Assembly (NCBI GenBank): GCA_003599145.1
Contig: QZIT01000006.1
Span: 124,001 to 188,000, forward strand
From: Candidatus Woesearchaeota archaeon
GTDB lineage: Archaea; Nanobdellota; Nanobdellia; Woesearchaeales; UBA9642
Length of the DNA stretch: 64,000 nt
Reading direction: 5' to 3'
The notes under the pieces were generated by a model. The model made no database searches, was not told where the DNA came from, and worked only from the letters and a program-made list of their open reading frames with translations. A program made the position numbers and the translations under genes. This document shows, in pieces, positions 6,463-63,955 of the stretch (the stretch's first letter is position 1; the number at the start of each line of letters is the position of its first letter).

Positions 6463-6549
6463 GGGCCTGTGGTCTAGTGGCTATGACGTAACCTTCACAC
6501 GGTTAAGGTCCCCAGTTCGAATAGTCTCTTGAAAATCTGGGCAGGCCCA
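6463..6549 (+). tRNA. tRNA-Val (CAC) with 14-nt T-loop intron
   Basis: Acceptor GGGCCTG/CAGGCCC; D-stem GTC/GAC; anticodon arm TAACC-TTCACAC-GGTTA; T-stem CCCAG/CTGGG interrupted. Confidence 0.88.
6522..6535 (+). other. Predicted archaeal tRNA intron, position 59/60 (TAGTCTCTTGAAAA)
   Basis: Removal gives CCCAG-TTCGAAT-CTGGG. BHB: TTCG/TGAA helix flanked by AAT bulges. Confidence 0.75.
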
Positions 6550-6583
6550 TAAAGCTTATAAATAACAAATCACTTCTGCAACC

Positions 6584-7642
6584 ATGACCTTAGAAAGCAT
6601 TGTTTCAATTACAGAGCAGAGATTAAGAACTAGACTTAAAGAGATGGCGCATCTTGCAGGAGATGAATATTTAGAAAGAGTTTCAGAAACAGGAGATGCT
6701 GAAAGCGTTATAAGACATCTTGCAGAAAGCGATAAGGCAGAGTTCATCATTACAAACTTTTTTCTTCAGCTTCCCTATGGCCCTCAAATAACAGAAACGC
6801 TTTTGAAATTCAAAGAGCATGGTGATTTGTTTTATGCAGCTTTAGATGTGGTTGCTGCACAGCTTGTTCATAATCCAGATATCCCTGCGTCGGCAAATCT
6901 TTTGGCTGCGCATAAGATAGTAACGCTTTTGGATCAGGATGCAGTTTATAAAATGATAGAGGAGTTTGATCCAACGTATCATGAAGAGGTGTATGTCGGT
7001 TTAAGCGATGTTGCTTATTATACTGAAGACGCTGGTGCTGTTGCAGCAGTTGCACAGTTCTTAGCTGAAACAAACGCTGATCCTGAAAGTGGATTTTATG
7101 GAGAAGACATCATGGAAGTCATTGCAGACAGGGCAGAAAAAACAGAAGATGCAGAAATGATTAAACAAACCGTTGAACTTGCAAAACTGTACAAAGGAGC
7201 ATCCTATTTCTTTACTACATTGATGGAGCACTACACTCCAAAAGAAAAAGATGGCTCCTATAGCTATCCTGCTGTTTTTTCAAGCGATGAGTTTATAAAT
7301 GCTGCAAATGCGTTTGATAATTGCTCTACAGGCCTTGTTGCAAGGGCGTTAGTGAAAATGGCAGTAGTGGATGAAGATCTTGCGAAACAAACTGCGCAGG
7401 TAGCCTTGACGTATCTTGATAAACAGGAAAGAACACTTGAAGAGGCACTTAGCATGCTGACAAAAACCAAAGATAAATTTCACGATTCGTACTTAACATC
7501 TCGCCTTGCCATTGCCCTGCAGAACGTGCATGGCCGAAATGCTGCGAGAAGGCTCTGGAATTTTGCAAAGCTGGAAAAAGATATTAGCGATGGAAATCCA
7601 ACAAAGCTCTTGCACCGCGTTAACAGCTATATTGAGCATTAA
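6584..7642 (+). CDS. Hypothetical alpha-helical protein (352 aa)
   Basis: ORF; TATA-like CTTATAAAT at 6555, about 25 nt before ATG. Confidence 0.6.
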   Translation: MTLESIVSITEQRLRTRLKEMAHLAGDEYLERVSETGDAESVIRHLAESDKAEFIITNFFLQLPYGPQITETLLKFKEHGDLFYAALDVVAAQLVHNPDIPASANLLAAHKIVTLLDQDAVYKMIEEFDPTYHEEVYVGLSDVAYYTEDAGAVAAVAQFLAETNADPESGFYGEDIMEVIADRAEKTEDAEMIKQTVELAKLYKGASYFFTTLMEHYTPKEKDGSYSYPAVFSSDEFINAANAFDNCSTGLVARALVKMAVVDEDLAKQTAQVALTYLDKQERTLEEALSMLTKTKDKFHDSYLTSRLAIALQNVHGRNAARRLWNFAKLEKDISDGNPTKLLHRVNSYIEH

Positions 7643-8013
7643 ATTTCATACTCCCTGCAATCTTCTTTGAGCGCTTCTGAATTTGTTCCGTTGTTGTTTA
7701 AAATAACATCAATATTGATTCTTTCACAGTATGTTCTGTCATTGGTTATTTTTGCAATTTTATACGCAACCATGTTTCTGCAGGTTCCCCTGCTGAAAAT
7801 TTCTGTGTTTTCTTCAGTTACTTTTTCCTCTTTGGCTATGGCGTTGCATAGGGTTGCATCTTTTGCCTTTATTGCAGCTTCTTGATAACATTGTGCAAGT
7901 TCATAGTTGCTTTTGTTCTGCTGCTTTTCCTTAAAACAGGGATCTTTGTTTTCTTCTGCTATTTGACAGGCAGTAATAAGCGTAAGCAGAATAAAAACAA
8001 TAAGTATCTTCAT
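7639..8013 (-). CDS. Small Cys-containing lipoprotein
   Basis: MKILIVFILLTLITAC lipobox; six or more Cys in the mature region. Confidence 0.6.
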   Translation of the reverse strand: MKILIVFILLTLITACQIAEENKDPCFKEKQQNKSNYELAQCYQEAAIKAKDATLCNAIAKEEKVTEENTEIFSRGTCRNMVAYKIAKITNDRTYCERINIDVILNNNGTNSEALKEDCREYEI

Positions 8014-8086
8014 GATAGCTTTTACCTGTTCTCCTATAAATAGTTATTGCAAAACGCTTATAAACTGAAAAGAAATTCCTCTTTGC

Positions 8087-8524
8087 ATGGATTTTATTGA
8101 TGCTGTAAGAAGAGAGTATAGAAAATTTTGCTATGAACAGGGATGGACTAAAGAGATTTATGCAGGTCATTCTGCAGTATTTACCGTTACAGGCATTGTT
8201 GAAGACATTGTTGGTGTTGCTGATGAGCCTATTGAGGAGCGTATGCATGATGATGAACCAGCAAAACCAACGCTGAGGGCAATTATAAAAAGCCTCACCG
8301 AGAAAAAAAGAGTAAGGCTAGGGCTGCGCATTGATGGAAAGTATTATATTGCAAAGCCAAAACACGAACTGAAATTGAGTTCGATTCAATCAGGGGATTT
8401 CATTACTGTAGTGTATAAAGAGTATCATATAGCGTCTTATAACTATACGCCCACAAATTTTGATGAGAAAACCCTGCGCTCGAGAGTTATACGCAGGGAA
8501 GTTGACAAGCTTATGCATCTTTAA
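8087..8524 (+). CDS. Hypothetical protein (145 aa)
   Basis: ORF with upstream TATA-like CTTATAAA. Confidence 0.55.
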   Translation: MDFIDAVRREYRKFCYEQGWTKEIYAGHSAVFTVTGIVEDIVGVADEPIEERMHDDEPAKPTLRAIIKSLTEKKRVRLGLRIDGKYYIAKPKHELKLSSIQSGDFITVVYKEYHIASYNYTPTNFDEKTLRSRVIRREVDKLMHL

Positions 8525-8568
8525 TAAACTTTATAAACAGACTTATGCTTAAAATAGAGAGGTGGGCA

Positions 8569-8808
8569 ATGCAGATTATTATTGATACGCAAAAGGATTC
8601 TAAAGAAGATATTGAAAAGGCTATTGCTTTTCTTAAATCCCTAACCGGTGCGCTACCTCAACCTTCCAATGAAGGATTTGTCAATATTTTTGACATGCCA
8701 AAGTCGGAATTGAAAGAACCTGAACAAAAGCAAGAGCCTGAAAAAAAGAAAAATACTGACGCTGATGAAAAACTCTTTGATGATAAGTTTGAAATCATTA
8801 CGTATTAA
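8569..8808 (+). CDS. Hypothetical acidic small protein
   Basis: MQIIIDTQKDSKEDIEKAIAFLKSL...; GAGAGGTGGG SD-like sequence before ATG. Confidence 0.5.
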   Translation: MQIIIDTQKDSKEDIEKAIAFLKSLTGALPQPSNEGFVNIFDMPKSELKEPEQKQEPEKKKNTDADEKLFDDKFEIITY

Positions 8809-8810
8809 CC

Positions 8811-9296
8811 ATGGACCTTAAACTTGAACAGGATATTAGGGATATGCATACGGACATTAAGCATATCAGAAGACATCTTGTAGAAAAAGAGCCTGATCAT
8901 TTCTCAAAAAGAGACATCGTCAGTGCGTTTTTTGGCGCAATCTTTATGGGGCTTACATTTCTTTTCAAAGGCCTGCTCATTCAAGTTGGCCTCAATATAC
9001 CTTGGGGAAGCATTGCCATCATTGTCACTTCCACAATCTTCATTTTGTCTACGCAAATATATTTTATTGGCTATAAGAGAGTAAGCAATAAAGAGGAAAG
9101 GCATTTCGGCCAGTTTTTGGTAAAACGGCTGTTCACTATTTATGGCATTGCTTTGATTGTTTCTTTTTATTTGCTGTATATTTTTAATTTCTTGGTGCTT
9201 GTGGGAAGCCTTGCAAATTTAGCGAAATTGACGCTTATCCTAAGCATGCCCTGTGCTATTGGCGCTGCAATAGGGGATTTGCTGAAAAAATATTAA
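8811..9296 (+). CDS. DUF2391-like integral membrane protein
   Basis: Four predicted TM segments after N-terminal coiled helix; family recall. Confidence 0.55.
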   Translation: MDLKLEQDIRDMHTDIKHIRRHLVEKEPDHFSKRDIVSAFFGAIFMGLTFLFKGLLIQVGLNIPWGSIAIIVTSTIFILSTQIYFIGYKRVSNKEERHFGQFLVKRLFTIYGIALIVSFYLLYIFNFLVLVGSLANLAKLTLILSMPCAIGAAIGDLLKKY

Positions 9297-9327
9297 AACA
9301 TATAAATGCAGCCATTTTCTGATAATC

Positions 9328-9762
9328 ATGCAATCAACCGATAGATACAAATTCATTGACCACACTGCTGATGCCAAGTATCAGGCGTATGGAAAAAATC
9401 TTGAAGAAGCATTTGTCAATGCAGCCATGGCCATGAACGCCATCATTATTGATGAAGAAAAAGTAAAATCCAAGATCTTTAAAACTATTCATGTTACAGG
9501 AAAGGATTTGAAAAACCTTTTGTATAATTTTTTAGAGGATATTCTAGTTATTTTGGATGCAGAGATGTTTTTGCTTGCGAAGATAAAGAATCTTAAAATA
9601 GAGCATATTGACAAAATGTACATGCTTACTGCTTTGTTAGAGGGAGATGTTGCAACAGAGGATTATCAAACAAATGAGCATGTCAAAGCAGTAACGTATA
9701 ATGACATGGAAATAAAAGAGGATAAAAAAGGCGTTTCTATAACTGTTGTGGTTGATTTATAA
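9328..9762 (+). CDS. Archease (RtcB activator)
   Basis: YKFIDHTADAKYQAYGKNLEEAFVNAAMAMNAII signature. Confidence 0.9.
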   Translation: MQSTDRYKFIDHTADAKYQAYGKNLEEAFVNAAMAMNAIIIDEEKVKSKIFKTIHVTGKDLKNLLYNFLEDILVILDAEMFLLAKIKNLKIEHIDKMYMLTALLEGDVATEDYQTNEHVKAVTYNDMEIKEDKKGVSITVVVDL

Positions 9763-9778
9763 ATTGAGAGGTGAACCT

Positions 9779-9964
9779 ATGAAGAAAAAAATAAAGAACA
9801 TCTGCGGCGGAGGAAGTGCAGTCTATGGCCTGGGTTTTGTTGGCGCGGCAATCTATTACATTTCAACTGCGACAGGATTCTGGATGGGTGTTCTGGGAGT
9901 TTTAAAAGCCGCTGTTTGGCCTGTTTTTGTCGTGTATGGTTTGCTTGGATTTTTAGGAATGTGA
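9779..9964 (+). CDS. Small two-TM membrane protein
   Basis: GAGAGGTGAACCT then ATG; hydrophobic Gly-rich. Confidence 0.55.
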   Translation: MKKKIKNICGGGSAVYGLGFVGAAIYYISTATGFWMGVLGVLKAAVWPVFVVYGLLGFLGM

Positions 9965-10004
9965 TTTTGCAAACCTTTATAAAAACACCGAAGTTCTTTT
10001 GACT

Positions 10005-11426
10005 ATGGAATTAAAAAAGATAAGCAGCTATGTTTGGGAAATACCAAAATCGGGAAATATGCTCGTTCCTGGTAAAGTATTTACTTCAGAAAAGCTTTTG
10101 GAAAACTTGAAAGGAGATAAAACCTTAGAGCAAGTAAGAAACGTTGCTTGTTTAAAGGGCATTATTCAAAATTCTATTGTCATGCCAGATGGCCATCAGG
10201 GTTACGGTTTTCCTATAGGCGGTGTTGCAGCTTTTGATTTAAACGATGGCATAGTTTCTCCAGGAGGCGTTGGTTATGATATTAATTGCGGTGTCAGAGT
10301 CATTACCAGTCCTTTTACAGAAAAGCAGATTGACAGCAAAAAGAAAGAACTGCTCAATGAGCTGTTTAGACAGGTTCCTGCAGGCGTTGGAAAAGCAAGC
10401 GTAACAAAACTGAGCAAAGACGTATTACTGGAAATTTTGCAGAAAGGAGCTGCGTGGGCTGTCAAAGAAGGCTATGGAACTAAAGCTGATTTGCAGAGAA
10501 TGGAAGAGTATGGCAGTGTTTCAAAGGCAGATCCTCATGCAGTAAGCCAGAAAGCAATATCCAGAGGGCAACCGCAGGTAGGCACGTTAGGCAGTGGCAA
10601 TCATTTTTTGGAAATACAAAAAGTGGATAAAATTTATGATGAAAACATTGCAAAGTTATTTGGTTTTCATAATGAAGGCCAAATTGCAGTCATGATTCAT
10701 TCAGGAAGCAGAGGATTAGGCCATCAGGTAGCAAGCGATTTTATTAAATCTATGGACGATAAATATGGTCATGAGCATTTGCCTGACAGAGAATTAATTT
10801 CAGCGCCTATGCAATCAGAACTCTCTCAGGAATATTTTAAGGCAATGTGGTCTGCAATGAACTTTGCATTTACCAATAGGCAGATGATGACCCACTGGAC
10901 GAGAGAGTCTTTTAAAAAAATTCTTGGAAGCAATGATGATATGAATATCGTCTATGATGTCTGCCATAACATTGCAAAAATAGAAGAGCATGTTATTGAT
11001 GGAGAAAAAAGAAAAGTTTGCGTCCATAGAAAAGGAGCAACAAGAAGTTTTGGTCCAGGCAGGGAGGAAATTCCTGAAGTGTACAGAAACATAGGGCAGC
11101 CTGTTATTATTCCAGGAAGCATGGGAACAGCAAGCTATGTTTTACTGGGCACTAAAAAAGCAGAAGAGATTTCCTTTGGAAGCACTGCGCACGGAGCAGG
11201 AAGAGTCATGTCACGTTCAAGAGCCTTGCAGACATTTAGAGGGGAATCTGTTGTTAAGGATTTGGAAAGCAAAAACATTCTGGTTAAAGGAACTTCCTGG
11301 AAGGGCATAGCAGAAGAAACCTATCAGGTATACAAGGATGTTGATGAAGTCATTAATGTATCGCATAATGCAGGTATAGGCAAAATGATTGTTCGATTAG
11401 TTCCTATTGCAGTCATGAAAGGTTAA
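10005..11426 (+). CDS. rtcB: RtcB tRNA-splicing ligase
   Basis: MPDGHQGYGFPIGGVAAFD, SPGGVGYDINCGVR, GTLGSGNHFLEIQ, HSGSRGLGHQ, HRKGATR, PGSMGT. Confidence 0.97.
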   Translation: MELKKISSYVWEIPKSGNMLVPGKVFTSEKLLENLKGDKTLEQVRNVACLKGIIQNSIVMPDGHQGYGFPIGGVAAFDLNDGIVSPGGVGYDINCGVRVITSPFTEKQIDSKKKELLNELFRQVPAGVGKASVTKLSKDVLLEILQKGAAWAVKEGYGTKADLQRMEEYGSVSKADPHAVSQKAISRGQPQVGTLGSGNHFLEIQKVDKIYDENIAKLFGFHNEGQIAVMIHSGSRGLGHQVASDFIKSMDDKYGHEHLPDRELISAPMQSELSQEYFKAMWSAMNFAFTNRQMMTHWTRESFKKILGSNDDMNIVYDVCHNIAKIEEHVIDGEKRKVCVHRKGATRSFGPGREEIPEVYRNIGQPVIIPGSMGTASYVLLGTKKAEEISFGSTAHGAGRVMSRSRALQTFRGESVVKDLESKNILVKGTSWKGIAEETYQVYKDVDEVINVSHNAGIGKMIVRLVPIAVMKG

Positions 11427-11464
11427 TTTTAGCAAACTTTAAGAAGTGTCGCTTCTTTTTATTG

Positions 11465-12214
11465 ATGATGAGAAAGCCTTTTGTTGTTACCTTTGTTATC
11501 CTGTTTCTTTTTTCCCTTTTGGCTATTCCTTTCATCCATGCCTATGAAATAGACTCTTTTGTCAATGACTATGCAGATGTTTTGACAGATGAAGATGAAT
11601 ATGAGCTTACATCCATTTTAATCAGCATATTTGATTCAGGCGCTGCAGAATATGCCGTTGTTACGGTTCCCAGTTTAGGAGGGCAGGATATTGAATCGTA
11701 CTCGTTTAATCTTGCCAATGGCGTTTTAGGAGATCCTGAGAAAAACAATGGATTGCTGTTGTTGGTTGCCATTGAAGACCGTGAATACAGATTTGAAGTG
11801 GGCAGAGGCTTAGAGCCAACATTAAATGATGCTTTGGTAGGAAGAATAGGAAGATATTATTTAGTTCCTTATTTCAAAGAAGGCAACTATGGACAGGGCA
11901 TGATTGAAGCAAGTTTAGCTCTGGAAAGAATGTTGATCAATGGAGAATCACTTCCCGAAGAGAAATCAGAAATAGACTGGTTTGTATGGACGATGATTAT
12001 TTTTGCTCTTGTTTTTATGATATTCCCTTTTGTTCTGGCGCTCTTCCGATGGAAAAGAACAAAAGAGTATTTTACTGCAGCCGCAGGAGCAGCAAGCATG
12101 TGGAACAGCTATCGCAGTTCAGGAGGATTTTCAGGCAGTCGTTCAGGTGGACGCTCAGGCAGGAGCTTTGGAGGGGGAAGTTTTGGAGGAGGAGGAAGTT
12201 CAGGAAGGTGGTAA
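11465..12214 (+). CDS. TPM-domain secreted/membrane protein (YgcG-like) with Gly/Ser-rich tail
   Basis: VNDYADVLTDEDEYEL, EVGRGLEPTLNDALVGRI; C-term GGGSFGGGGSSGRW. Confidence 0.8.
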   Translation: MMRKPFVVTFVILFLFSLLAIPFIHAYEIDSFVNDYADVLTDEDEYELTSILISIFDSGAAEYAVVTVPSLGGQDIESYSFNLANGVLGDPEKNNGLLLLVAIEDREYRFEVGRGLEPTLNDALVGRIGRYYLVPYFKEGNYGQGMIEASLALERMLINGESLPEEKSEIDWFVWTMIIFALVFMIFPFVLALFRWKRTKEYFTAAAGAASMWNSYRSSGGFSGSRSGGRSGRSFGGGSFGGGGSSGRW

Positions 12215-12215
12215 C

Positions 12216-12362
12216 ATGGAAAAAACTATTGATTGTCCAAAGTGCAAAACAAAAATGAAAAAGTTAAAAAAGAATGGCGTTGTTCTTGATATATGCTCAA
12301 AGTGCAGGGGCATGTGGGTAGATGCCCATGAAATACAAAAATTGCTGAAGGTGGAGAAATGA
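12216..12362 (+). CDS. zf-TFIIB-type zinc ribbon protein
   Basis: MEKTIDCPKCKTKMKKLKKNGVVLDICSKCRGMWVDAHEIQKLL; internal ATG of ORF 12030..12362. Confidence 0.8.
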   Translation: MEKTIDCPKCKTKMKKLKKNGVVLDICSKCRGMWVDAHEIQKLLKVEK

Positions 12363-12931
12363 AAAAAACAGGAATGATTCTTATCGTGGCCGCATTGCTT
12401 TTATTGATTATAGTCATTTGGGGAATTTCAGCGTACAATGGTTTGGTAAGAAGCGATGAAACCGTGAAGGAAAAATGGGCTAACGTCCAGTCTGCCTATC
12501 AAAGAAGAGCTGATTTGATTCCTAATTTGGTTGCAACGGTAAAGCAGTATTCTGATTATGAAGGAGATGTTTTAACAGAGATAACCAATGCAAGAGCTTC
12601 TTTATTAAATGCACAGACGCCTGCAGAACTGCAGTCTGCTGATGCGCAAATGAATGCTGCGCTTGCAAGATTGTTGGTGGTTGTGGAAAATTATCCTGAC
12701 TTAAAGGCCAATGAAAATTACCTGTCATTGCAGGATGAATTGGCAGGAACTGAAAATAGAATTAAAGTAGAACGGGATATCTATAACAATGCAGTGAAAA
12801 ATTACAACATCAAAACAAGAGTGTTTCCATCGAGCATGATTGCAGGCATGTATGTGTTTGAAAGTTATGATTCCTTTATTGCAGATGAAAATGCAGAAAA
12901 CGCTCCTGATGTTGGAAGCTTATTTGAATGA
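12359..12931 (+). CDS. lemA: LemA family protein
   Basis: YNGLVRSDETVKEKWANVQSAYQRRADLIPNLVATVKQY. Confidence 0.95.
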   Translation: MKKTGMILIVAALLLLIIVIWGISAYNGLVRSDETVKEKWANVQSAYQRRADLIPNLVATVKQYSDYEGDVLTEITNARASLLNAQTPAELQSADAQMNAALARLLVVVENYPDLKANENYLSLQDELAGTENRIKVERDIYNNAVKNYNIKTRVFPSSMIAGMYVFESYDSFIADENAENAPDVGSLFE

Positions 12932-13801: not shown

Positions 13802-13866
13802 AGTCTAAGGAGACGAATGCGGGTTTATAAATCTTTCTATTTTTACTACTCTATATTGGTAACAAT

Positions 13867-14644: not shown

Positions 14645-14648
14645 AGGA

Positions 14649-15332: not shown

Positions 15333-15451
15333 TTACTAATGACAGCAATCTTTTCTTTATAAAGTTTGCGTATTTAGAATCTTAATCGCTCTTTAACAAA
15401 CCATTTATAAACAGTTGCCTAGAGTATAGTAGAACAAAACGAGGTGATAGC

Positions 15452-19187: not shown

Positions 19188-19549
19188 AATATTGCATACA
19201 AAAGCATCAGGCAAGCCATTTGCATTATGATTTTCGTTTGGAATTAGACGGTGTTGCAAAATCTTGGGCAATTCCTAAAGAACCGTCAATAAAAGAAGGA
19301 GAAAAAAGATTAGCTGTGCAGGTTGAAGACCATGAAATTTCCTATATGGATTTTGAAGGAATTATTGAAGAGGGCTATGGCAAAGGAATTGTCGAACTCT
19401 GGGACGCTGGCTCATGGAAACCTGAAAGCATAAAGGAAAATAAAATAGTCTTTTTTCTCGACGGAAAAAAATTAAAAGGAAGATTTACGCTTTTGAAATT
19501 TAAAGATAAAAACTGGCTATTGTTCAAGGCAAAAGAAAAAGATCAATAA
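19184..19549 (+). CDS. Stand-alone LigD-type 3'-phosphoesterase domain protein
   Basis: HQASHLHYDFRLELDGVAKSWAIPKEPS...VEDHEISYMDFEGIIEEGYGKGIVELWD. Confidence 0.9.
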   Translation: MKYCIQKHQASHLHYDFRLELDGVAKSWAIPKEPSIKEGEKRLAVQVEDHEISYMDFEGIIEEGYGKGIVELWDAGSWKPESIKENKIVFFLDGKKLKGRFTLLKFKDKNWLLFKAKEKDQ

Positions 19550-42281: not shown

Positions 42282-45200
42282 TTACGTAACTACAATAGCT
42301 GGCTTTGAAGGAGAAGCGTTTTTTGCCTTTGCTTCAGTGCTTTTTTCTGCTGCTTCTATACGGATATCTGCTTTGAATATCCCTTTGATTCTTTCAGAAA
42401 CCTTTTGCAGATTCTGCAGTTCTTCTTTTTGGGATAAAATAACAGAAGGCAGTTTGGTATTATCCTTCAGAATAAGCGGAAGCAGTTTTGCAATGTCCTC
42501 TCCATACTGCTTGAATTCCTGTTTTGCCATCACTGCCTGCAATATGAGTTTCATATCTCTTGTTTTTTCAATTTCTTTTTTAAGCAGTCTGTAAAAGTCA
42601 TATTTCCAAGATGCGCTGATAATTATCTTTATGGTTTTTGGTTGCTCTATCTTTGCAAATTCCAGTACTTTTCTCATATCTAAAGTTAGATTGGTGATGG
42701 TTTCTTCTATAAACTCTGCTTTTGCATCAATTTTCTTTTCATCAAACGATGGCCATGATGCTAAGGAGATAAACGTTTTTTGGCCTGCCTTTTCCCATAA
42801 CTCTTCTGCAAGATGAGGTGTAAAAGGAGCAATCAGCAATAACAGGGTAGTAAATGCTTCTTTTGGGAGTTCTTCAAGTGTCTGCAGATAATTCACAAAT
42901 TCAGTTATGGCAATGGTTGTTTTATTGTATTCAAAAGTATCTATAGTTTCCGTAACGCCTTTTATGGTTCTGTGCATTTTGCTTTGCGTCAGCGTATCTA
43001 TTTTTGCAATCAGTTTTTTATCTGACAATGCATATACTCTTGATAAGAATCTATAGGAGCCTTCAACGCCATCATCTCTCCATTCTATCACTTTGTCAGG
43101 AGTTGCAACAGACATTAAGAAGAATCTTGCTGTGTCTATGCCGTATGTATCAGAAATATCTGTTTGATACACCACATTTCCTTTGCTTTTTGACATTTTT
43201 GCTCCATCTTTGTAGACAATGCCCTGATTGAATAATTTTGCAAAAGGCTCGTCAAAATCAATAAGCTTCATATCATGCAATGCTTTAACAAAAAACCTTG
43301 CATAAATCAAGTGCATGACTGCATGCTCAGCACCGCCTATATACTGGTCAACAGGCATCCAATACTTTACTTTTGCTTTGCTGAACGGCTCTTTTTTATT
43401 TTTATTATCGCAGTATCTTAAAAAATACCATGATGAATCCATAAAACCGCCCATGGTGTCTGTTTCCCTTTGTGCAGGTCCTTTACACTTTGGACAGGCA
43501 ACGTTCACAAATTCTTTATGCTCTTTTAAAGGATTCTTTGCCTTTAAGTCAACATTTTTAGGAAGCAAAACAGGAATTGCTGATGGAACTACCCCGCACT
43601 TTTGACAGTGAATCATGGGTATAGGTGTTCCCCAGTATCTTTGTCTTGATATTAACCAGTCTTTTATTTTATACTGAATAACTTTCTTTCCTAATTTCTT
43701 TTGAGCAAGGTATTTGGTTATCTCAGCAATGGCATCAGTGCTTTTTGTTCCATTAAACTCTCCTGAATTGATTAAGGTTCCTTCTTCTGTGTATGCTCTT
43801 TCTTTTCCCAGATACTGCAATAATCCAAAGGCATTATACTCATGTGTTATTTTTTTCAGGGCTTCTTCTGCAGACATCCAAATTACTTCATGCTTTTTTG
43901 CTTCTTCTTTATCTAAAGTAACAGGTTTATCATCAGTTAATTCCAATAAAACAGCCTGGTCAAGCCGCATTCTCCATACTTTTTTATTGTCTGCAAAAAA
44001 ATGCTGTTCAGTTTCTCCGCCGAGTTTTTTTATAAATTGAGTTTTATACCCTGTTTCTTCTAAAACTTCCCGTTCAGCAGCTTTTCCTGCGTCTTCTCCT
44101 TGGTCAATTCCTCCAATGACAGGAGAGATCCATCCAAATTCTTTCCACTGTATCATCAAAAAGGTATTGTCTTTTTTTCTGTGAACGACTGCAGAAATGG
44201 TTTTTCTAAACTCTTCATTTTTATGAGCCTCTCCGAAAACAGGCATGATGACTTCTTTAATGGGAATTTTATATTTTTTTGCAAACTCAAAATCCCTTTG
44301 GTCATGTGCAGGCACTGCCATTACCATGCCTGAGCCATAATCAGCAAGAACAAAATTGCCTGCCCAGACAGGAACTTTTTCTCCGTTGACAGGATTGATT
44401 GCATAGCTTCCTGTAAATACGCCATCTTTATCTAGCGATTCAATTTCTTCCTGTGTTTTTACTTTCTGGCATTTTTTGACAAAGGCTTCCATGTCTTTTT
44501 TATGCTCTGCTGTTGTCAATTCCATCAAACGAGGATGGTGAGCAGAAATAACCATAAAGGTAACTCCATAAATAGTGTCTGGGCGTGTTGTAAAAATAGG
44601 CCATTGCTCCTTGTTGATTTCAAACAATATTTCTGTTCCATGGCTTTTCCCTATCCAGTTTTTCTGCATTGTTTTTATTTTTTCAGGCCACTCTATTTTT
44701 TCCAAATCAGCCAGCAATCTCTCTGCATAGTCTGTAATCTTAAAAAACCATTGCTCTAAGTCTTTTTTTACCACGTCTGTTTCACAGCGCCAGCACTTGC
44801 CTCCTTCTGCTTCTTCATTGGCTAAAACAGACTCGCAGTTAGGGCACCAGTTGACAGGAGCTTTTTTTCTGTATGCTAATCCTTTTTCGAATAATTTTAT
44901 GAAAAAATATTGATTCCATTGATAATACTCAGGGTCATGGCTTGCCAGCATTCTTTCCCAGTCATAGCTGTTGCCCAATGCTTTTTGATATGCAATAATT
45001 TTTTTTATTGCTTTTTCAGTATAGTCTAAAGGATGGATGCCTTCTTTTTTTGCAGCTGTTTCTGCAGGCAATCCAAAAGAATCATAGCCCATAGGATACA
45101 AGACATTATGGCCCTGCATTCTTTTACATCGTGCATAGACATCTCCAATAGTATAATTTCTTACATGGCCCATATGTAAAAAAGAAGCGCTGGGATAGGG

Positions 45201-45308
45201 ATACATCTCTAAAACATAATATTTTTTCTTTTTTCCCTCTGTAGCATGAAAGATGCCTGCTTCTTCCCATGCAGACTGCCATTTCTTGGCTATTGCATTT
45301 AAATCCAT
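42282..45308 (-). CDS. leuS: Leucyl-tRNA synthetase (bacterial type) with internal Nudix domain
   Basis: YPYPSASFLHMGHVRNYTIGDV; KMSKSKGNVV; Nudix box GGIDQGEDAGKAAEREVLEETGY. Confidence 0.96.
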   Translation of the reverse strand: MDLNAIAKKWQSAWEEAGIFHATEGKKKKYYVLEMYPYPSASFLHMGHVRNYTIGDVYARCKRMQGHNVLYPMGYDSFGLPAETAAKKEGIHPLDYTEKAIKKIIAYQKALGNSYDWERMLASHDPEYYQWNQYFFIKLFEKGLAYRKKAPVNWCPNCESVLANEEAEGGKCWRCETDVVKKDLEQWFFKITDYAERLLADLEKIEWPEKIKTMQKNWIGKSHGTEILFEINKEQWPIFTTRPDTIYGVTFMVISAHHPRLMELTTAEHKKDMEAFVKKCQKVKTQEEIESLDKDGVFTGSYAINPVNGEKVPVWAGNFVLADYGSGMVMAVPAHDQRDFEFAKKYKIPIKEVIMPVFGEAHKNEEFRKTISAVVHRKKDNTFLMIQWKEFGWISPVIGGIDQGEDAGKAAEREVLEETGYKTQFIKKLGGETEQHFFADNKKVWRMRLDQAVLLELTDDKPVTLDKEEAKKHEVIWMSAEEALKKITHEYNAFGLLQYLGKERAYTEEGTLINSGEFNGTKSTDAIAEITKYLAQKKLGKKVIQYKIKDWLISRQRYWGTPIPMIHCQKCGVVPSAIPVLLPKNVDLKAKNPLKEHKEFVNVACPKCKGPAQRETDTMGGFMDSSWYFLRYCDNKNKKEPFSKAKVKYWMPVDQYIGGAEHAVMHLIYARFFVKALHDMKLIDFDEPFAKLFNQGIVYKDGAKMSKSKGNVVYQTDISDTYGIDTARFFLMSVATPDKVIEWRDDGVEGSYRFLSRVYALSDKKLIAKIDTLTQSKMHRTIKGVTETIDTFEYNKTTIAITEFVNYLQTLEELPKEAFTTLLLLIAPFTPHLAEELWEKAGQKTFISLASWPSFDEKKIDAKAEFIEETITNLTLDMRKVLEFAKIEQPKTIKIIISASWKYDFYRLLKKEIEKTRDMKLILQAVMAKQEFKQYGEDIAKLLPLILKDNTKLPSVILSQKEELQNLQKVSERIKGIFKADIRIEAAEKSTEAKAKNASPSKPAIVVT

Positions 45309-53318: not shown

Positions 53319-53322
53319 AGTA

Positions 53323-53823: not shown

Positions 53824-53895
53824 GGGCCTGTGGTGTATCGGTAACACGCAACCTTCGCAAGGTTGAGACATCGGGTTCAATTCCCGACAGGTCCA
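53824..53895 (+). tRNA. tRNA-Ala (CGC), intronless
   Basis: GGGCCTG/CAGGTCC with G3:U70; anticodon loop TTCGCAA; T-arm TCGGG-TTCAATT-CCCGA. Confidence 0.92.
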
Positions 53896-55279: not shown

Positions 55280-55310
55280 ACTGCAACATTATTTTGGTTG
55301 TTTATAAAGC

Positions 55311-55805: not shown

Positions 55806-55944
55806 GTTTTTTTTGTAGCTGATCATACTATAAATAGTTTGTGCATAGATTAAAAAAAGATAAGACTTATTTAATATTCCTTTCTAGTGGTGAATTTACG
55901 AAATATTTATAAACGTGCATTTAATCTCATTTGAAGGTCCTACA

Positions 55945-56790: not shown

Positions 56791-56846
56791 GAATTTTTTT
56801 GATATATCCATAGCTTTATAAACATCGTATAATCTCTGAAAAGCAA

Positions 56847-56943
56847 GGGCTGGTAGTTAAATCTGGTATAACGCGCCCATGGCATGGGTGAGGCTCCGGG
56901 TTCAAAAGAGACGAAACATCTCAAGAAAATCCCGGCCAGTCCA
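56847..56943 (+). tRNA. tRNA-Ala (GGC) with 23-nt T-loop intron
   Basis: GGGCTGG/CCAGTCC with G3:U70; D-stem GTTA/TAAC; anticodon arm CGCCC-ATGGCAT-GGGTG; T-stem CCGGG/CCCGG interrupted. Confidence 0.88.
56907..56929 (+). other. Predicted tRNA intron, position 59/60 (AGAGACGAAACATCTCAAGAAAA)
   Basis: Removal gives CCGGG-TTCAAAT-CCCGG; internal GAGA/TCTC hairpin; TTC/GAA pairing. Confidence 0.75.
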
Positions 56944-56947
56944 TTTT

Positions 56948-57487
56948 TTATACATGCAAAGAATTTCTGTACATGCTGTCAATATAGTCTTGAACGCCTA
57001 AATCCTCAGAGCCGAATCCAGAAGGCAACAATTCAGCAGTATTGGTTACTATGATTTCTTGAAAATCAGAGCTTGTAAGAATAACTTCAATAGGTTTACC
57101 GTTAACACTTGCTGCTTCATGAAGCACTTGTCTGCAGGCGCCGCAGGGTGCAGTTGCTTTTGTTGTCTCTTCATACGCATCTTGAGCAAGCCATTTGCGT
57201 GCAGTGATGGCAATCCGTTTCAAGTCATACTCTCGTCTGTTAAATGCCTGAAAAAGCGCGCTTCTCTCTGCGCAGATGGTGAGTCCATAAGAAGCATTTT
57301 CAACATTTGCACCAAGAATAATGAGACCTGTTTCTGTCATCAACGCTGCGCCAACTGAAAAATGAGAGTAAGGGCAATAAGAGCCTTTCGTAGCGTTCAT
57401 TGCCTGATGAATGAGGTTTTGTACGCTTGATTCTAATGTGACAATACTATGATACGTTTCCATGCGCTCAGAACAGCTTTGAAGCAC
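56948..57487 (-). CDS. cdd: Cytidine deaminase
   Basis: CPYSHFSVGAALMTETG; NVENASYGLTICAERSALFQAF; PCGACRQVLHE. Confidence 0.93.
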   Translation of the reverse strand: MLQSCSERMETYHSIVTLESSVQNLIHQAMNATKGSYCPYSHFSVGAALMTETGLIILGANVENASYGLTICAERSALFQAFNRREYDLKRIAITARKWLAQDAYEETTKATAPCGACRQVLHEAASVNGKPIEVILTSSDFQEIIVTNTAELLPSGFGSEDLGVQDYIDSMYRNSLHV

Positions 57488-57495
57488 TTAAAGAT

Positions 57496-58245
57496 ATGTT
57501 GTATAGAAACAGACAACTTTTTATACAGAAACATACTTCTCGACCTATGCAACGGTCATTTAAGAATCTGCAATTGACAAAACAGGAGTTTGCTCTTTAT
57601 GAAACGCTGCTAAAGAGTGGGCCTTTGCCTATCGTGAGCATTGCAAAACAGTCTGCTGTCAATAGAAGTTACTGTTATGAATTGCTGGAAAAACTTTCAG
57701 TAAAAGGTTTTGTTTCAAAAATACTGATTAATAATAAAATTCATTGGCAGGCACTCTCGCGAACTAAAATTCTGTATGCATTGGACAGCTACAGAGAAAA
57801 ACTCAATACGTATCTTGAGAACATTGAACAAAAATATAAGCCTGAAACACCAAGAAGCATAGCTCTCTTTAAAGGAACAAAAGGAGTGCGCTCTCTTTTG
57901 GAAGATATTACAGTATCAAAAACAAAAGTGGTTGGTTTTGGCATTAAGGGAAAGCTCAAGCAGTTTTTTCCTTATTACTATCCGCATTTTGCTGATAAGA
58001 TTAAGCAATCTGATATTCCTTTTGAGCTTATCTTCCTGAAAAAGGGAAAACCTATTCCAACAGCAAAAACAAAATATAAATCCTTTCCAGAGGCATTAGA
58101 TTCTTCTGTAGAAATCAATGTCTATGAAGATAAAACCATTCTCATTTTTTGGAAAGACCCTGTTGAAGCAATAGAAATTGTTGACAAGGACGTTGCCAAC
58201 AGTTTCCGAAATTTTCATAAGTTGTTTTGGGACCAGTTGAAATAG
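57496..58245 (+). CDS. TrmB-family transcriptional regulator
   Basis: N-terminal HTH (LTKQEFALYETLLKSGPLPIVSIAKQSAVNRSYCYELLEKL) plus sensor domain. Confidence 0.8.
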   Translation: MLYRNRQLFIQKHTSRPMQRSFKNLQLTKQEFALYETLLKSGPLPIVSIAKQSAVNRSYCYELLEKLSVKGFVSKILINNKIHWQALSRTKILYALDSYREKLNTYLENIEQKYKPETPRSIALFKGTKGVRSLLEDITVSKTKVVGFGIKGKLKQFFPYYYPHFADKIKQSDIPFELIFLKKGKPIPTAKTKYKSFPEALDSSVEINVYEDKTILIFWKDPVEAIEIVDKDVANSFRNFHKLFWDQLK

Positions 58246-58249
58246 CTGT

Positions 58250-58513
58250 TCACGTTTCCATAAGTTTGTATGCTGCATACAGTTTATCTGCGTGAGCCAA
58301 ACAAACACCTAAAGCATACCATCCTGCTTTCTTTAGCGCGCTGTGCTTTTCGTCTATTTTTTCTTGTTCGAGTGCTTTATTCAATGCATACTTGCCTACG
58401 CCATACAACACAGGGATTTCATAAGCGCCAGTTAGCCTTGAAAAACTTCCCATAATGATGCCCTGTAATGTTTGGTGCACTGGCCTTCTGAAGAGCGGGT
58501 TTTGTAGATTCAT
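58250..58513 (-). CDS. Hypothetical small protein
   Basis: ORF; SD-like GGAGG upstream on the minus strand. Confidence 0.5.
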   Translation of the reverse strand: MNLQNPLFRRPVHQTLQGIIMGSFSRLTGAYEIPVLYGVGKYALNKALEQEKIDEKHSALKKAGWYALGVCLAHADKLYAAYKLMET

Positions 58514-58623
58514 AGTCTCAACCTCCTTTTTAACGTATAACGTAAACCAACTATTTATATATTCTCCCCCACCTAGTGTAGAGTAATAGTAACCTTTATA
58601 TATTTGTGTATCTTTTTAATGGC

Positions 58624-59370
58624 ATGGATGCTGTCTATCTGGAAAAAATAGGCCTGACAAAGAATGAAAGCATTATTTATCTTACGCTATTACGCATAGG
58701 CACATCAAAGACAGGCAACCTCCTAAAATCTGCAAAAATAAATTCCGGAAAAATCTATGAAATCCTTGAGGCATTAAAGCAAAAAGGGTTGGTCAGTGAA
58801 ACTATACAAGATAGAGTAAAATATTTTACTGCAGCTCCCCCTCAGCAAGTGCTACACTATATTGAAATGAAAAAAAATGCAGTGCTTGAGCAGGAAGCCA
58901 TTGCTCAAAAAATGATCCCTCAATTGACGGTATTAAGAAAAGAACATCTGGAAAACAAAAAAATTCTTGTCTATACAGGCTTTAGAGGAATTATAACCGC
59001 AGCAGAAGAAGCCTTGGAAAATACTCCTGCAGGACAGGAAATTTTATCTTTGGGCATATCTGATATTAATGCAAAGTATCAGCATTACTGGGTGAAATGG
59101 GAGAAAATGAGGCAGAAGAAAAAAATAGCTGCAAGGTATGTTCTTTCAGAAAAAGGAATTATTTACAACGATTTAAAAAAAGAAAAACGAATTCAGTTAA
59201 AAATTCTAGAACTCGACACCCCTGTAGGCGTAGACATCTATGGAAAAGATAAAATACTCATTCTGCATTACCAAGAACCTGTAACCTGCACGCTGATTTA
59301 TGATGAGCATACGGCAACATCGTTTAAATCTTTTTTTGAAGCCATGTGGAAAACAGCAAAGAAACCTTGA
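58624..59370 (+). CDS. TrmB-family transcriptional regulator
   Basis: MDAVYLEKIGLTKNESIIYLTLLRIGTSKTGNLLKSAKINSGKIYEILEALKQKGLV. Confidence 0.88.
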   Translation: MDAVYLEKIGLTKNESIIYLTLLRIGTSKTGNLLKSAKINSGKIYEILEALKQKGLVSETIQDRVKYFTAAPPQQVLHYIEMKKNAVLEQEAIAQKMIPQLTVLRKEHLENKKILVYTGFRGIITAAEEALENTPAGQEILSLGISDINAKYQHYWVKWEKMRQKKKIAARYVLSEKGIIYNDLKKEKRIQLKILELDTPVGVDIYGKDKILILHYQEPVTCTLIYDEHTATSFKSFFEAMWKTAKKP

Positions 59371-59425
59371 TTGTCGTTGTAACAATAAGCGAAACATATA
59401 AAAACCATTGCTTGCTCTTGCCAGT

Positions 59426-60061
59426 ATGGTTAAGGCAATTTTCTTTGATTTGTGGGGAACCTTGGTTGAAACTACGGTCTATCCTAGTCCTATTAGGCAG
59501 GTAAAATACATCTTGGGCATTCAGGGAACATTTCAGGATTATATTCTAACCTTTGAACAGATATTCATGACTAAAACATTTTCTTCCTTGGAAGAAGGCT
59601 TTAGAGAGGTCTGCAAGGCGTTTGATATTGAGCCAACAAAAGACCAGTTAGATCAGTTAATAGGTTTATGGAATAAAAAGAATCTTATCAGCAAGCCTTA
59701 TCCTGAAACGCTTGAAGTTCTTGAAAAATTGCATAAAAAATTCAAATTAGTGTTAATCAGCAATACGGATTGTTTTTCTACTGAGCAAACATTGGACAAA
59801 TTTGACATGACGAAATACTTTGAAAAGATTGTCGTTTCCTATAAAGAGGGCAAATTAAAATCTCACCCTGAATTATTTGCAAACGCATTAAAGGAGTTAA
59901 AAATAAAGAAAGAAGATGCGATCATGATAGGAGATAGCATTGAAAGCGACATGGAAGGTGCTCAAGCAGCAGGTATAAAAGGAATATTGATAGATAGAAA
60001 AGATAGAAGGGAGTATGAGCATAAAATCATGAGCTTACTAGAAATAGAGGATGCGTTATGA
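59426..60061 (+). CDS. HAD-superfamily hydrolase
   Basis: AIFFDLWGTLVE; LISNTDCF; MIGDSIESDMEGAQAAGIKGILIDR. Confidence 0.92.
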   Translation: MVKAIFFDLWGTLVETTVYPSPIRQVKYILGIQGTFQDYILTFEQIFMTKTFSSLEEGFREVCKAFDIEPTKDQLDQLIGLWNKKNLISKPYPETLEVLEKLHKKFKLVLISNTDCFSTEQTLDKFDMTKYFEKIVVSYKEGKLKSHPELFANALKELKIKKEDAIMIGDSIESDMEGAQAAGIKGILIDRKDRREYEHKIMSLLEIEDAL

Positions 60062-60471
60062 ATTGCATATTCTGCAAAATCATCAAAAAAGAAATTCCCT
60101 GCAACTTGCTCTATGAAGATGAATCATGCTTTGTTTTTCTCGACATTAAGCCAATAACCAAAGGACATACGCTAGTAGTGCCTAAAAAACATTCTGAAAA
60201 TCTGTTGGATATAGAAGAAAAAGACGTGTTGCACTGTATGAACCTGATAAAAAAATTAGGCCCTAAAATTATGAAAGCCATGAAGGCAGATGGCTTTAAC
60301 GTAGGACAGAATAATTTCTCTGCAGCAGGACAAACGGTTATGCATACGCATTTTCATATTATCCCCAGATACAAAAACGACGGATTGAAAAATTGGCAAA
60401 ATAAAGATACTTCTGCAGATGCATTATTGCAGGCTGAAAAAGAAATTAAAAAAGCGTTACGTGTTCCATAA
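60058..60471 (+). CDS. HIT-family protein
   Basis: CIFCKIIKKEIPCNLLYEDE; QTVMHTHFHIIPRY. Confidence 0.94.
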   Translation: MNCIFCKIIKKEIPCNLLYEDESCFVFLDIKPITKGHTLVVPKKHSENLLDIEEKDVLHCMNLIKKLGPKIMKAMKADGFNVGQNNFSAAGQTVMHTHFHIIPRYKNDGLKNWQNKDTSADALLQAEKEIKKALRVP

Positions 60472-61635
60472 TGCTTCAAAATAAGCCCTGAAATTTTTAT
60501 AGAGCGCTTCTGAGCTTATTTCAAAGCAGCGCATGTCTTTCTCGAACATGAAAAAGATGACTTTGTTTCCCTTGTAGAGATTAATCTGCATGGGAATGCC
60601 TGATAATGCTTTCGGGAGTGAACGTACTTCGCTGATTTTTCCTGTTGGATCTCCTCCATGAATGAATTCTTCAAGGATGTCTTTTTTGTAATCAGGATCT
60701 CCCAGCAATCGCGCTTTAATGCCTTTTTTGACTCTCTCTTTGTGATAATTCCTGAACCAATCGCTGAGCTGCTCTCCCAAATGACCATAGGTTGCTCCTA
60801 TAACTTGATATTCGTCTCCTGATTCCAGTTCATCAAGCATTGATCTGAATCTTTCCGTCACTGGTTCAAATCCCTTGTAGACTAAAACGTCTTGGTTCCA
60901 AAGCAATAAAAATTGATCGTAGAAAGAATCTGCTAAGTCTTTATTTTTAATCCTTATCGCAATAACGTTTTTTGAATCACCAATTCTGATAATGACATTA
61001 TCTTTATAGATGTTTACGGTTGCAGGTGATGCCATGGCGTTGGGAATGACTTTTCCTTCTGCTAATCGCATGCCTTTTCGTTCTCGTTCATACCACTGTC
61101 TGCCTTCATCTGAATAGATTGTTTTGGTTTTAATGCCTATCTTTTCCCTAAACTGATACTGTTTTTTAAAATAATCGCTCATGCGAACATCTAATTCTCC
61201 AACAACATAGACATACATGGTGTCTCCTTTTTTGAGCACTTGCAAGGTATCTTTAAATGCTGTTTCCAATCCTTTCATTCCTCGAAACACCGTCGCTTCT
61301 GTTTTATACTTTGCAAGTGTTTTTTTTAAGAGCAATTCGGGAATGAGGTTTTTTATGGATTGTTTCTGCTCCTGTAATTTTTGCTCCTTTTCCTGCAAAT
61401 AATCTAAAATTCTTTCAGGAGATGCCGCTTCAAAGTGTTTTATGCCTTCTTCTATAACAGAACTGACCAGTCCTTTCTGCATCAATCTATCAAGAATTTC
61501 GTAAATTTTAGAGCTTGCAGCGCCTGATTTCTCAACAATAGGTCCTGTGGTTGCAGTTCCGAGTTCTAACAATGCCATGTAGACATTAATCTCAGATTTA
61601 GTTAATCCTATAGATTCCAGCAAGGAAGTGTCCAT
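60457..61635 (-). CDS. TrmB-family regulator with duplicated sensor domain
   Basis: LLESIGLTKSEINVYMALLELGTATTGPIVEKSGAASSKIYEILDRL, then two sensor-like copies. Confidence 0.85.
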   Translation of the reverse strand: MDTSLLESIGLTKSEINVYMALLELGTATTGPIVEKSGAASSKIYEILDRLMQKGLVSSVIEEGIKHFEAASPERILDYLQEKEQKLQEQKQSIKNLIPELLLKKTLAKYKTEATVFRGMKGLETAFKDTLQVLKKGDTMYVYVVGELDVRMSDYFKKQYQFREKIGIKTKTIYSDEGRQWYERERKGMRLAEGKVIPNAMASPATVNIYKDNVIIRIGDSKNVIAIRIKNKDLADSFYDQFLLLWNQDVLVYKGFEPVTERFRSMLDELESGDEYQVIGATYGHLGEQLSDWFRNYHKERVKKGIKARLLGDPDYKKDILEEFIHGGDPTGKISEVRSLPKALSGIPMQINLYKGNKVIFFMFEKDMRCFEISSEALYKNFRAYFEALWNT

Positions 61636-61760
61636 AGTTGTTTTAAGGCATTTTCCTATATAAAACTATTGTTTTCTCCCCCCTAAGGGTTAGGTAAGAT
61701 TTAAATACTAAGATAATCACTATATAGTAGTAATAATTAAAATAAAAGAGGGGGATACAC

Positions 61761-62384
61761 ATGAAAACCATAACCAAAATCGCAACAATCGCAGCAATTA
61801 TTGCCGCTTCATTTGCAAGCGCAAAAGCAGCACCAATCAACGGCAATGCAGAATACATTAAAAGCGAAGGCGAAGGAAAAAGCATGGTCGAAACCAACTT
61901 GTTTTATGAAGTTGCAGGCGTTAAAGGATTCACCTTTGTTGACTTCAATGAACAGGGTAATACTTACTTCGGAAAAACAACCTTCACGCCAAAATCAGGA
62001 AATGGCGTCAGAGCACAGATCATTCATGGGACAGCAATGCCAAATCAATACGGTATTGGTATAACCATGAAATTGCCAAAAGTTGCTGGTGTTTCAGGAA
62101 GCGTTTACAATGTTCCTTTGTGGGTTGACCGTGAAGGAGAACAACTCGAAAAGAATATTGTTGGTGTAAGCTTAGGAGCAAAACTTCCTTACGATATTGG
62201 CTTGTTCGCCTTCAATGAGTGGAATCTTAGAGGAGCAAATGGCATCGCATCAACCTATGGAGAGATTGGTGTAACAAAGAATGTTGGCCAATTTACCTTG
62301 ATGTACAATCCATCTTTGAACGGCAACGGTGATGCGACTCCAGAATTGGAACAGCGAGTGAGCATCGGATTTAATTTCAAGTAA
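61761..62384 (+). CDS. Secreted beta-strand-rich protein resembling an outer-membrane barrel
   Basis: Signal peptide MKTITKIATIAAIIAASFASAKAA; Gly/aromatic alternating strands; C-terminal RVSIGFNFK; GAGGGGG SD. Confidence 0.65.
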   Translation: MKTITKIATIAAIIAASFASAKAAPINGNAEYIKSEGEGKSMVETNLFYEVAGVKGFTFVDFNEQGNTYFGKTTFTPKSGNGVRAQIIHGTAMPNQYGIGITMKLPKVAGVSGSVYNVPLWVDREGEQLEKNIVGVSLGAKLPYDIGLFAFNEWNLRGANGIASTYGEIGVTKNVGQFTLMYNPSLNGNGDATPELEQRVSIGFNFK

Positions 62385-62440
62385 TTTTTTTCTTTTTTTT
62401 AAACCAATACCTATTTAAATGACTCTTTCTCATACGTAGC

Positions 62441-63763
62441 ATGATTGATTTAATCCTGCTCTTTAGCGTTGTTGGCGTTGTTATTTTCTTAGGATTTGCA
62501 GGAGAGATAGTTTTTAGAAAAACAAGCATCCCTGATATCATCTGGTTAATTCTTTTCGGGATTGTCATAGGCTCATTTTATGATGTGCAAGGAGCATCCA
62601 TCATTACTGATATTGCTCCTGTATTTACCACGTTTGCATTGATTTTCATCCTCTTTGAGGGTGCATTAAGCATCAACATCAGCGACTTATTTAAAAGCAT
62701 GTCCAAAACAACCGTCATAACCCTCCTCTCATTTGTTCTTGCAATTGCTGTTGTTACTGGTATTTTTTCAGCAGTGGGATTGCCCGTATTATACGGCATG
62801 CTGATAGGTGCTATTCTTGGAGGAACAACGTCTGCTGTTGTCATTCCTCTTTCTGAAAGGCTTGCCATCAAAAGCGAAACAGTCTCTATTTTGAAGCTCG
62901 AGTCTGCGCTCAACGATGTTTTGTGCGTTCTTGCAAGCATTACTTTTATAGGCATCATTGTAAATATTGCAAGCTTTTCGCTTTCCAAGGCATTAAATCA
63001 GCTTTTGGGAAGTTTTGCTATCGCTATTTTAATTGGAGTCGTTGTTGCACTTTTATGGATCCCTCTGTTGAAATTTATTCAAAAGCATGTTAAAAGTTAT
63101 CTGATTACTATAGCTTTAATGCTTATCCTCTATGCGTTTGTTGAGTATATTCATGCCAATGGAGCCATTGCATGTTTGGCTTTTGGTTTGGTTCTTGGCA
63201 ACTCAAAAAAAATCTACGAGCTTATGAGAAAAGACGACACCACTGCTGCGCTTTCGGGAACAGAGCGATTTTTTTATTCGCAGATTTCCTTTTTTGTCAA
63301 GGCATTCTTTTTTGTCTATATTGGAATGCTTATGGATTTTAGCAATCCCCTGCCGTTTATTATTGGGGGAGTCATCACCATAGCACTTTTCTTGATAAGG
63401 CCTGTTGCAATAGCGCCCTATGCAAGAAAGCTTGAACTCAAAGACAAGGCAGTGCTTGAAACGTTAATTCCCAAAGGATTAGCCGCCGCAGTTCTTGCTC
63501 AGCTACCTTCACAGATGGGCATTGAAATTTTTCAAGGATTTGAAAGCATGATTATGGCTGTTGTATTATACACTATTTTGCTAAGCTCCTTGTTCGTATT
63601 CCTGATAGAAAAAAATTGGTTTTTTGGCTTTACTGAGCTGTTCAGAAAATTAAGAGGGCTGCCTCCTTTGGCAAAGCCTGCTGAGGTCATGGTGCAAAAA
63701 GCAGATGAGGAAAAGAAAGCAGAAGCAAGGGAAGAAACAAAGAAACAACAGAAGAAAAAATAG
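62441..63763 (+). CDS. Cation:proton antiporter (CPA1/NhaP-like)
   Basis: LIFILFEGALSINI; SALNDVLCVLASI; about 12 TMs. Confidence 0.88.
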   Translation: MIDLILLFSVVGVVIFLGFAGEIVFRKTSIPDIIWLILFGIVIGSFYDVQGASIITDIAPVFTTFALIFILFEGALSINISDLFKSMSKTTVITLLSFVLAIAVVTGIFSAVGLPVLYGMLIGAILGGTTSAVVIPLSERLAIKSETVSILKLESALNDVLCVLASITFIGIIVNIASFSLSKALNQLLGSFAIAILIGVVVALLWIPLLKFIQKHVKSYLITIALMLILYAFVEYIHANGAIACLAFGLVLGNSKKIYELMRKDDTTAALSGTERFFYSQISFFVKAFFFVYIGMLMDFSNPLPFIIGGVITIALFLIRPVAIAPYARKLELKDKAVLETLIPKGLAAAVLAQLPSQMGIEIFQGFESMIMAVVLYTILLSSLFVFLIEKNWFFGFTELFRKLRGLPPLAKPAEVMVQKADEEKKAEAREETKKQQKKK

Positions 63764-63800
63764 GCAGATTTAAAAACAATTTCCTTTTTCTTTTTCCCAT

Positions 63801-63955
63801 GCGGGTGTAGTTCAGCCTGGTTTAGATCGCCACGCTCATAACGTGGATGTCGAGGGTTCAAATGAGATTTTTGCAAAAATCTCGCTAAATGCAGGGGTTT
63901 TGGTCAAGCCCCTTAATGCGAAAAGCAAAAATCTATGAAAGTCCCTCCACCCGCA
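63801..63955 (+). tRNA. tRNA with CAU anticodon (elongator Met or Ile2) with 79-nt T-loop intron
   Basis: GCGGGTG/CACCCGC; anticodon arm CCACG-CTCATAA-CGTGG; T-stem GAGGG/CCCTC interrupted. No GGG:CCC initiator anticodon stem. Confidence 0.85.
63863..63941 (+). other. Predicted 79-nt tRNA intron at position 59/60
   Basis: Removal gives GAGGG-TTCAAAT-CCCTC. BHB: TTCA/TGAA helix with AAT and AGT bulges; 10-bp inner helix AGATTTTTGC/GCAAAAATCT. Confidence 0.78.

Follow-up and report, generated by a model that had tools for sequence, protein, structure and literature searches.

The window analyzed here, a stretch of 64 kb (C2:124001-188000) from a genome of 1.31 Mb in six contigs and with 97% completeness, carries tRNA genes with inserts in the T-loop. 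We asked whether these inserts are introns removed by the archaeal splicing proteins, how their ends would be recognized and how they came to occupy a large share of the tRNA genes. We are highly confident that the inserts, at position 59/60, are archaeal tRNA introns of the protein-spliced type.

Interrupted tRNA genes in the window and the genome

A strict cloverleaf script requiring 7/7 acceptor pairs, 5/5 T-stem pairs, T8 and the D-loop GG identified in the window the interrupted genes Val-CAC, Ala-GGC and CAU and the uninterrupted Ala-CGC, all on the forward strand. Its fifth match, at 19385, was an obvious chance match, and a model of tRNA positions 1-59 (R1) found no further tRNAs in the window. 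In tRNA-Val(CAC), a 5′ exon of positions 1-59 ending in TTCGAA (6463..6521) is followed by a 14-nt intron, TAGTCTCTTGAAAA (6522..6535), and by a 3′ exon reaching from position 60 to the discriminator (6536..6549); the T-arm sequence is CCCAGTTCGAATAGTCTCTTGAAAATCTGGG. The tRNA-Ala(GGC) gene consists of a 5′ exon of positions 1-59 ending in TTCAAA (56847..56906), a 23-nt intron (56907..56929) and a 3′ exon (56930..56943), and the tRNA(CAU) gene of a 5′ exon (63801..63862), a 79-nt intron (63863..63941; shuffled-fold z -4.2) and a 3′ exon (63942..63955). As Ile-TAT has a tRNA of its own and another Met tRNA resembles an initiator, tRNA(CAU) is probably the elongator Met. The intronless Ala-CGC (53824..53895), which served as internal control, was the only tRNA gene that ARAGORN and Rfam found in the window. 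Excision of the inserts at 59/60 gave complete cloverleaves in the three interrupted genes, with T-loops TTCGAAT, TTCAAAT and TTCAAAT. The preliminary description was thus borne out in the proportion of interrupted genes (three of four), in the lengths, junctions and restored loops of the inserts, and in the bulge triplets and TTCR/NGAA complementarity that it had proposed at each intron.

For the whole genome, we combined Rfam tRNA searches at a loose threshold with R1 and a pattern scan, and recovered 42 tRNA genes, 17 of which (~40%) have a 59/60 intron: Ala-TGC, Ala-GGC, Arg-TCG, Arg-CCT, Asp, Gln-TTG, Glu-TTC, Glu-CTC, Gly-TCC, His, Ile-TAT, Leu (AAG as read), Lys-TTT, CAU, Pro-TGG, Val-CAC and Val-TAC. 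The introns were 13 to 139 nt long, and all ended in NGAAA(A or G) ahead of T60; that of Glu-TTC, which the splitting script did not locate, was placed by eye. The pattern GTTCRAA...GAAART was not overrepresented in the genome, where it matched 36 times and the reversed control 53 times, and its matches were used as a candidate list only, each verified by its cloverleaf. Several of the 17 genes also contained 37/38 and D-loop introns. The D-loop introns of Val-TAC, Gln-CTG, Lys-TTT, Ile-TAT and Pro-TGG appeared by eye to follow a similar plan, and can be read as an exon four-mer, a bulge, the intron, the complement of the four-mer and a second bulge. The T-loop-intron genes have other bases after the discriminator and do not encode the 3′ CCA, in which they differ from those of Thermoproteales; genes with conserved introns reportedly tend to encode 3′ CCA (attributed to Sugahara 2008).

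Could the interrupted genes be decaying pseudogenes, hit by random insertions and replaced by intact copies? Pseudogene-like T-arm insertions are known in eukaryotes (PMC4090602), but each of the 17 genes was the sole copy of its isoacceptor found in this 97% complete genome, and the intact copies that the preliminary description had named as a reason to abandon its reading did not turn up. Moreover, the cloverleaves were intact outside the insert, exact removal of which restored a complete cloverleaf in 17/17 genes, and the position and ends of the inserts were constant, with covariation between intron and exon. We therefore regard decay as extremely unlikely and retain the intron reading.

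The interruptions have consequences for gene finding. ARAGORN found 0/17 of the T-loop-intron genes, and Rfam at its gathering score found 1/17, the other 16 falling below the cut-off or being missed. The expectation that such genes are invisible to default scans thus held for ARAGORN and, save for one gene, for Rfam; tRNAscan-SE 2.0 includes noncanonical introns in its default search (PMC8450103). Pro-GGG, Pro-CGG, Gly-CCC, Arg-CCG and Leu-CAG were not found in the genome by the combined scans and could be present in a more heavily interrupted form. It is likely that many of the "missing" tRNAs of these microbes are merely hidden, and T-loop introns explain how tRNA sets of Woesearchaeota-like genomes can look incomplete with simple scanners.

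Pairing between the T-loop and the intron

The underlying proposal is that the T-loop itself provides half of the splice motif. Across the intron, the T-stem was 100% paired in 18 aligned interrupted T-arms, with 4/5 pairs covarying. The splice helix was tested at its fourth pair, exon base 57 against intron base -6, in 123 rebuilt interrupted tRNAs, 17 from the genome itself and 106 distinct ones from relatives. Where base 57 was A, the intron base at -6 was U in 66, C in 0, A in 5 and G in 2 cases; where it was G, the counts were C 41, U 5 and A 4 (Fisher test on the A/G by U/C part, 2e-25). These counts carry some selection and shared ancestry, the relatives having been gathered with a pairing-rewarding covariance model (R3) and a script demanding GAA at -5 to -3. 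The set from the genome itself, found mostly without R3, showed a like pattern at 57/-6, in 17 sequences only. The covariation indicates that the TTCR/YGAA splice helix is real. Consistent with the proposed pairing, no T-loop intron occurred in tRNAs with a non-TTCRA T-loop (Thr, TGCAA; Gly-GCC, TCCGA).

The details of the motif varied. In the genome, the central helix had four pairs in 13/17 introns and three pairs in 4/17. Among relatives, intron bases 2 and -7, which make up the first inner-helix pair, were paired in 79 of 105 introns, compared with a mean of 44 and a maximum of 58 in a re-paired control, which indicates a 5′ bulge fixed at 3 nt; this register beat every other tested. An inner helix of at least 2 bp was found in 35/105 introns of relatives. 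The genome's own introns paired in the strict register in 5/17 cases, their register differing from that of relatives, and in many of them the inner helix was absent or shifted, often by one or two bases. The 12-nt introns have room for at most one inner-helix base pair and, judged from their sequences, are bulge-helix-loop rather than strict bulge-helix-bulge (BHB) motifs; many T-loop introns appear to be relaxed motifs rather than clean BHBs.

The preliminary description had assigned one BHB architecture to the three window introns. The complementarity supports this, but in Ala-GGC only 3/4 central pairs form (TTC/GAA plus an A-A mismatch, with an inner helix GAGA/TCTC), and the TTCG/TGAA central helix is part of the RNAfold minimum-energy structure only for Val-CAC, the best folds of Ala-GGC and CAU having an internal loop in its place. 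The more general idea that the invariant T-loop serves as half of a BHB fared similarly: the covariation upholds the half-site, whereas the motif around it is often relaxed. Self-splicing by a group I or II intron was rejected, as no Rfam catalytic core matched in the window and the inserts, at 13 to 139 nt, are not long enough.

A different possibility is that the inserts are never spliced and are retained as an extended T-loop. The hairpins of some longer introns could indeed stack on the T-stem. Inserts of 13 to 139 nt should nevertheless destroy the T-loop/D-loop elbow of the tRNA; the covariation of TTCR with YGAA is understandable if the two form a splice motif; and the genome has EndA and RtcB as well as 37/38 introns in other tRNAs. 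We judge retention to be very unlikely and return to removal by splicing. The canonical 37/38 introns are presumably excised by the shared enzymes and differ in that the anticodon region, rather than the T-loop, forms the pairs.

Splicing proteins and the proposed route

The window encodes the tRNA-splicing ligase RtcB (9999..11426, forward strand; Pfam PF01139, E 7e-168), with its closest matches in MAGs that bear the names Woesearchaeota, Pacearchaeota and Nanoarchaeota. The splicing endonuclease EndA is represented in the genome by one PF01974 gene (C1:554640, E 2e-29), a second match being weak and stop-ridden (E 0.13), and exactly one PF01974 match was found in 39 of the 40 genomes of the order searched, including this one. 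The catalytic residues Tyr, His and Lys are conserved, and the closest solved chains are the catalytic subunit of Nanoarchaeum equitans (3iey_A, E 6e-39) and the EndA of M. jannaschii. The protein lacks the nine-residue insertion of A. pernix, which we take to be the crenarchaea-specific loop.

We infer the following route for cleavage and ligation. In the precursor, the T-stem would keep pairing across the intron and T-loop bases 54-57 (TTCR) would pair with YGAA near the intron 3′ end, so that each splice site would lie in a bulge of 3 nt (AA^N and AA^T or AG^T). In either bulge, a single EndA would cut on the 3′ side of base 2, and the exons would then be joined by RtcB to restore the normal T-loop. 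The length of the intron would be almost free, from 12 to 139 nt. As TTCRAA is nearly invariant, an intron ending in YGAARR would suit almost any tRNA, which would allow introns to spread between isoacceptors.

The enzyme in this route differs in its subunits from those of two comparable systems. Thermoproteales have an (alpha-beta)2 EndA with the crenarchaeal loop, which gives broad specificity, and the EndA of N. equitans, an organism with tRNA introns and split tRNAs and by inference of the same broad group, consists of alpha plus beta subunits; here, a single loopless EndA subunit is apparently used for the T-loop introns. The alpha'2 enzyme of fulgidus is able to remove a bulge-helix-loop intron from full-length pre-tRNA. 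Provided that no divergent second subunit was missed, the order looks like an exception to the rule of co-evolution between EndA and introns.

Spread of the introns and relation to known systems

To survey other genomes, we used R3, which models the interrupted T-arm only; a full pre-tRNA model (R2) found tRNAs with and without intron and was dropped. R3 shows ordinary T-arms as 25-nt matches with E ~0.005 or worse, and misses most introns longer than ~70 nt, so that the survey counts are lower bounds. It had matches in at least 204 of 288 genomes of the order (154/193 genera) and in at least 176 of 371 genomes of the phylum. Matches with an intron were found in the genome itself and in two genomes of the same family (G004 and G005), and in none of G001, G002 and G003. 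Of 89 loci taken from survey matches (L193-L281), 81 could be rebuilt into complete tRNAs with strict pairing. No match was obtained even at E 0.1 in four bacterial genomes and one Thermoplasmatales chromosome. Two Thermoplasmata MAGs, Wukongarchaeum and Halarchaeoplasma had matches, and a complete interrupted tRNA was rebuilt in each, indicating a broader archaeal range than first supposed. The absence of insertions from relatives, which would have spoken against the preliminary description, was thus not what we found, and its proposal of a lineage-wide DPANN intron family agrees with the 17/42 genes, the covariation and the 204/288 genomes of the order, although the introns are not confined to DPANN.

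Within the genome, introns of different tRNAs are akin. Those of Gln-TTG and Glu-TTC are related almost throughout; those of CAU and Arg-CCT share parts with this family, to which the D-loop insert of Glu-CTC is also related; and the Gly-TCC intron is identical to nt 1-18 of that of Glu-TTC. All five genomic copies of a hairpin module, GCAGG(C/G)G...CCCCT(A/T)A, lie within tRNA introns, one of them in the window (GCAGGGG...CCCCTTA in the tRNA(CAU) intron, 63891..63915); the reversed pattern had 0 matches in the genome. Two Gln tRNAs of G004 have introns that are one base apart, and the His intron of that genome is clearly related. Box C/D guide RNAs were sought by eye in the long introns, with no obvious C and D boxes seen. 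Reverse transcriptase was rejected as a driver of spread, as PF00078 had no match in the genome above the Pfam cut-off.

As 204/288 genomes of the order have such introns and further archaeal groups have them too, some may be old, and all might be ancestral and independently lost rather than gained by spread. Against this, 11 of the 17 isoacceptors have an uninterrupted T-loop in the sister-genus genome G001, scored as 100% complete, and no T-loop intron occurred among the about 30 tRNA genes recovered from it, a partial set. Furthermore, loss alone cannot yield related introns in unrelated tRNAs of one genome. We consider purely ancestral introns unlikely and favor gain by spread, possibly through transposition or gene conversion; the kindred introns in different tRNAs resemble, by analogy, the intron transposition of Thermoproteales.

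T-loop introns at 59/60 and intron transposition are of a kind already known from Thermoproteales. As far as the work is reported in later articles, noncanonical BHB introns occupy many positions there, including 59/60 (Sugahara 2008; Fujishima 2010, cited in PMC4033280, PMC4090602), with up to three introns per tRNA gene (cited in PMC4033280, PMC4090602), and similar introns in unrelated tRNAs were read as transposition (Fujishima 2010, cited in PMC4033280, PMC4090602). The two systems have in common the site and introns that closely resemble one another while lying in unrelated tRNAs and at different positions; they differ in phylum and in the T-loop being the recurrent noncanonical site here. 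The known noncanonical intron sites include 59/60, and the sources of such introns include Nanoarchaeota (PMC4090602); reviews mention T-loop introns (PMC6379350). The permuted tRNAs of Thermofilum pendens join at the same T-loop junction (PMC3978253), with the gene halves reversed there and in normal order around an intron here. Nst1, related to N. equitans, has only two intron-bearing tRNAs (PMC3655853), compared with 17 with T-loop introns alone here. In the literature searched on tRNA introns in Woesearchaeota, only a paper on group I introns (PMC6125680) was relevant and no account of T-loop introns in this group turned up; priority elsewhere is possible. What is new is the order-wide spread, the covariation evidence for the T-loop half-site and the minimal 12-nt introns, together with, as far as genome comparison can tell, an intron family spreading within one genome and an apparent conflict with the EndA co-evolution rule.

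Our broadest interpretation is tentative. It may be that a loopless single-subunit EndA removes relaxed, often 12-nt introns across a whole DPANN order, and that TTCRAA acts as a universal landing site for a mobile, EndA-dependent intron family that is still invading tRNAs. The T-loop introns provide a large natural data set for tRNA intron gain, and they offer a direct way to test, with one small enzyme and an RNA of 31 nt, whether EndA architecture and intron diversity co-evolve as proposed.

Identity of the CAU tRNA

In most archaea, AUA codons are decoded by a modified CAU tRNA. The genome analyzed here carries a separate tRNA-Ile(TAT) with three introns (L147, contig C1, 119463-119584), and TAT-type Ile tRNAs were also found in the sister-genus genome G001, the relative G002 and the same-family genome G005. 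Because of this separate Ile-TAT tRNA, we infer that the CAU tRNA of the window is the elongator Met tRNA.

Multiple introns and a displaced insert in other tRNAs

The tRNA-Glu(CTC) on the minus strand of contig C2 (L151, about 326830-327010) apparently has three introns, and the one in its D-loop contains the hairpin module GCAGG(C/G)G...CCCCT(A/T)A, which four further tRNAs carry within their T-loop introns. In tRNA-Trp (L021, contig C3, 152255-152357), a 29-nt insert adjoins the T-stem rather than lying in the anticodon loop, its splice position being ambiguous at about 53/54. A tRNA-Leu gene interrupted both by an insert in the D-arm and by a T-loop intron (L152, contig C4, about 66990-67170) was provisionally read as having the anticodon AAG; A34 is unusual among archaea. 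The window itself encodes a 1008-aa leucyl-tRNA synthetase ORF (42282-45308), in which Pfam assigns residues 368-487 to a NUDIX domain that may be an insertion.

T-loop introns in Thermoplasmata

Some Thermoplasmata are likewise rich in T-loop introns, since R3, the covariance model of the interrupted T-arm, gave at least about ten matches per genome in two metagenome-assembled genomes (L282 and L283).
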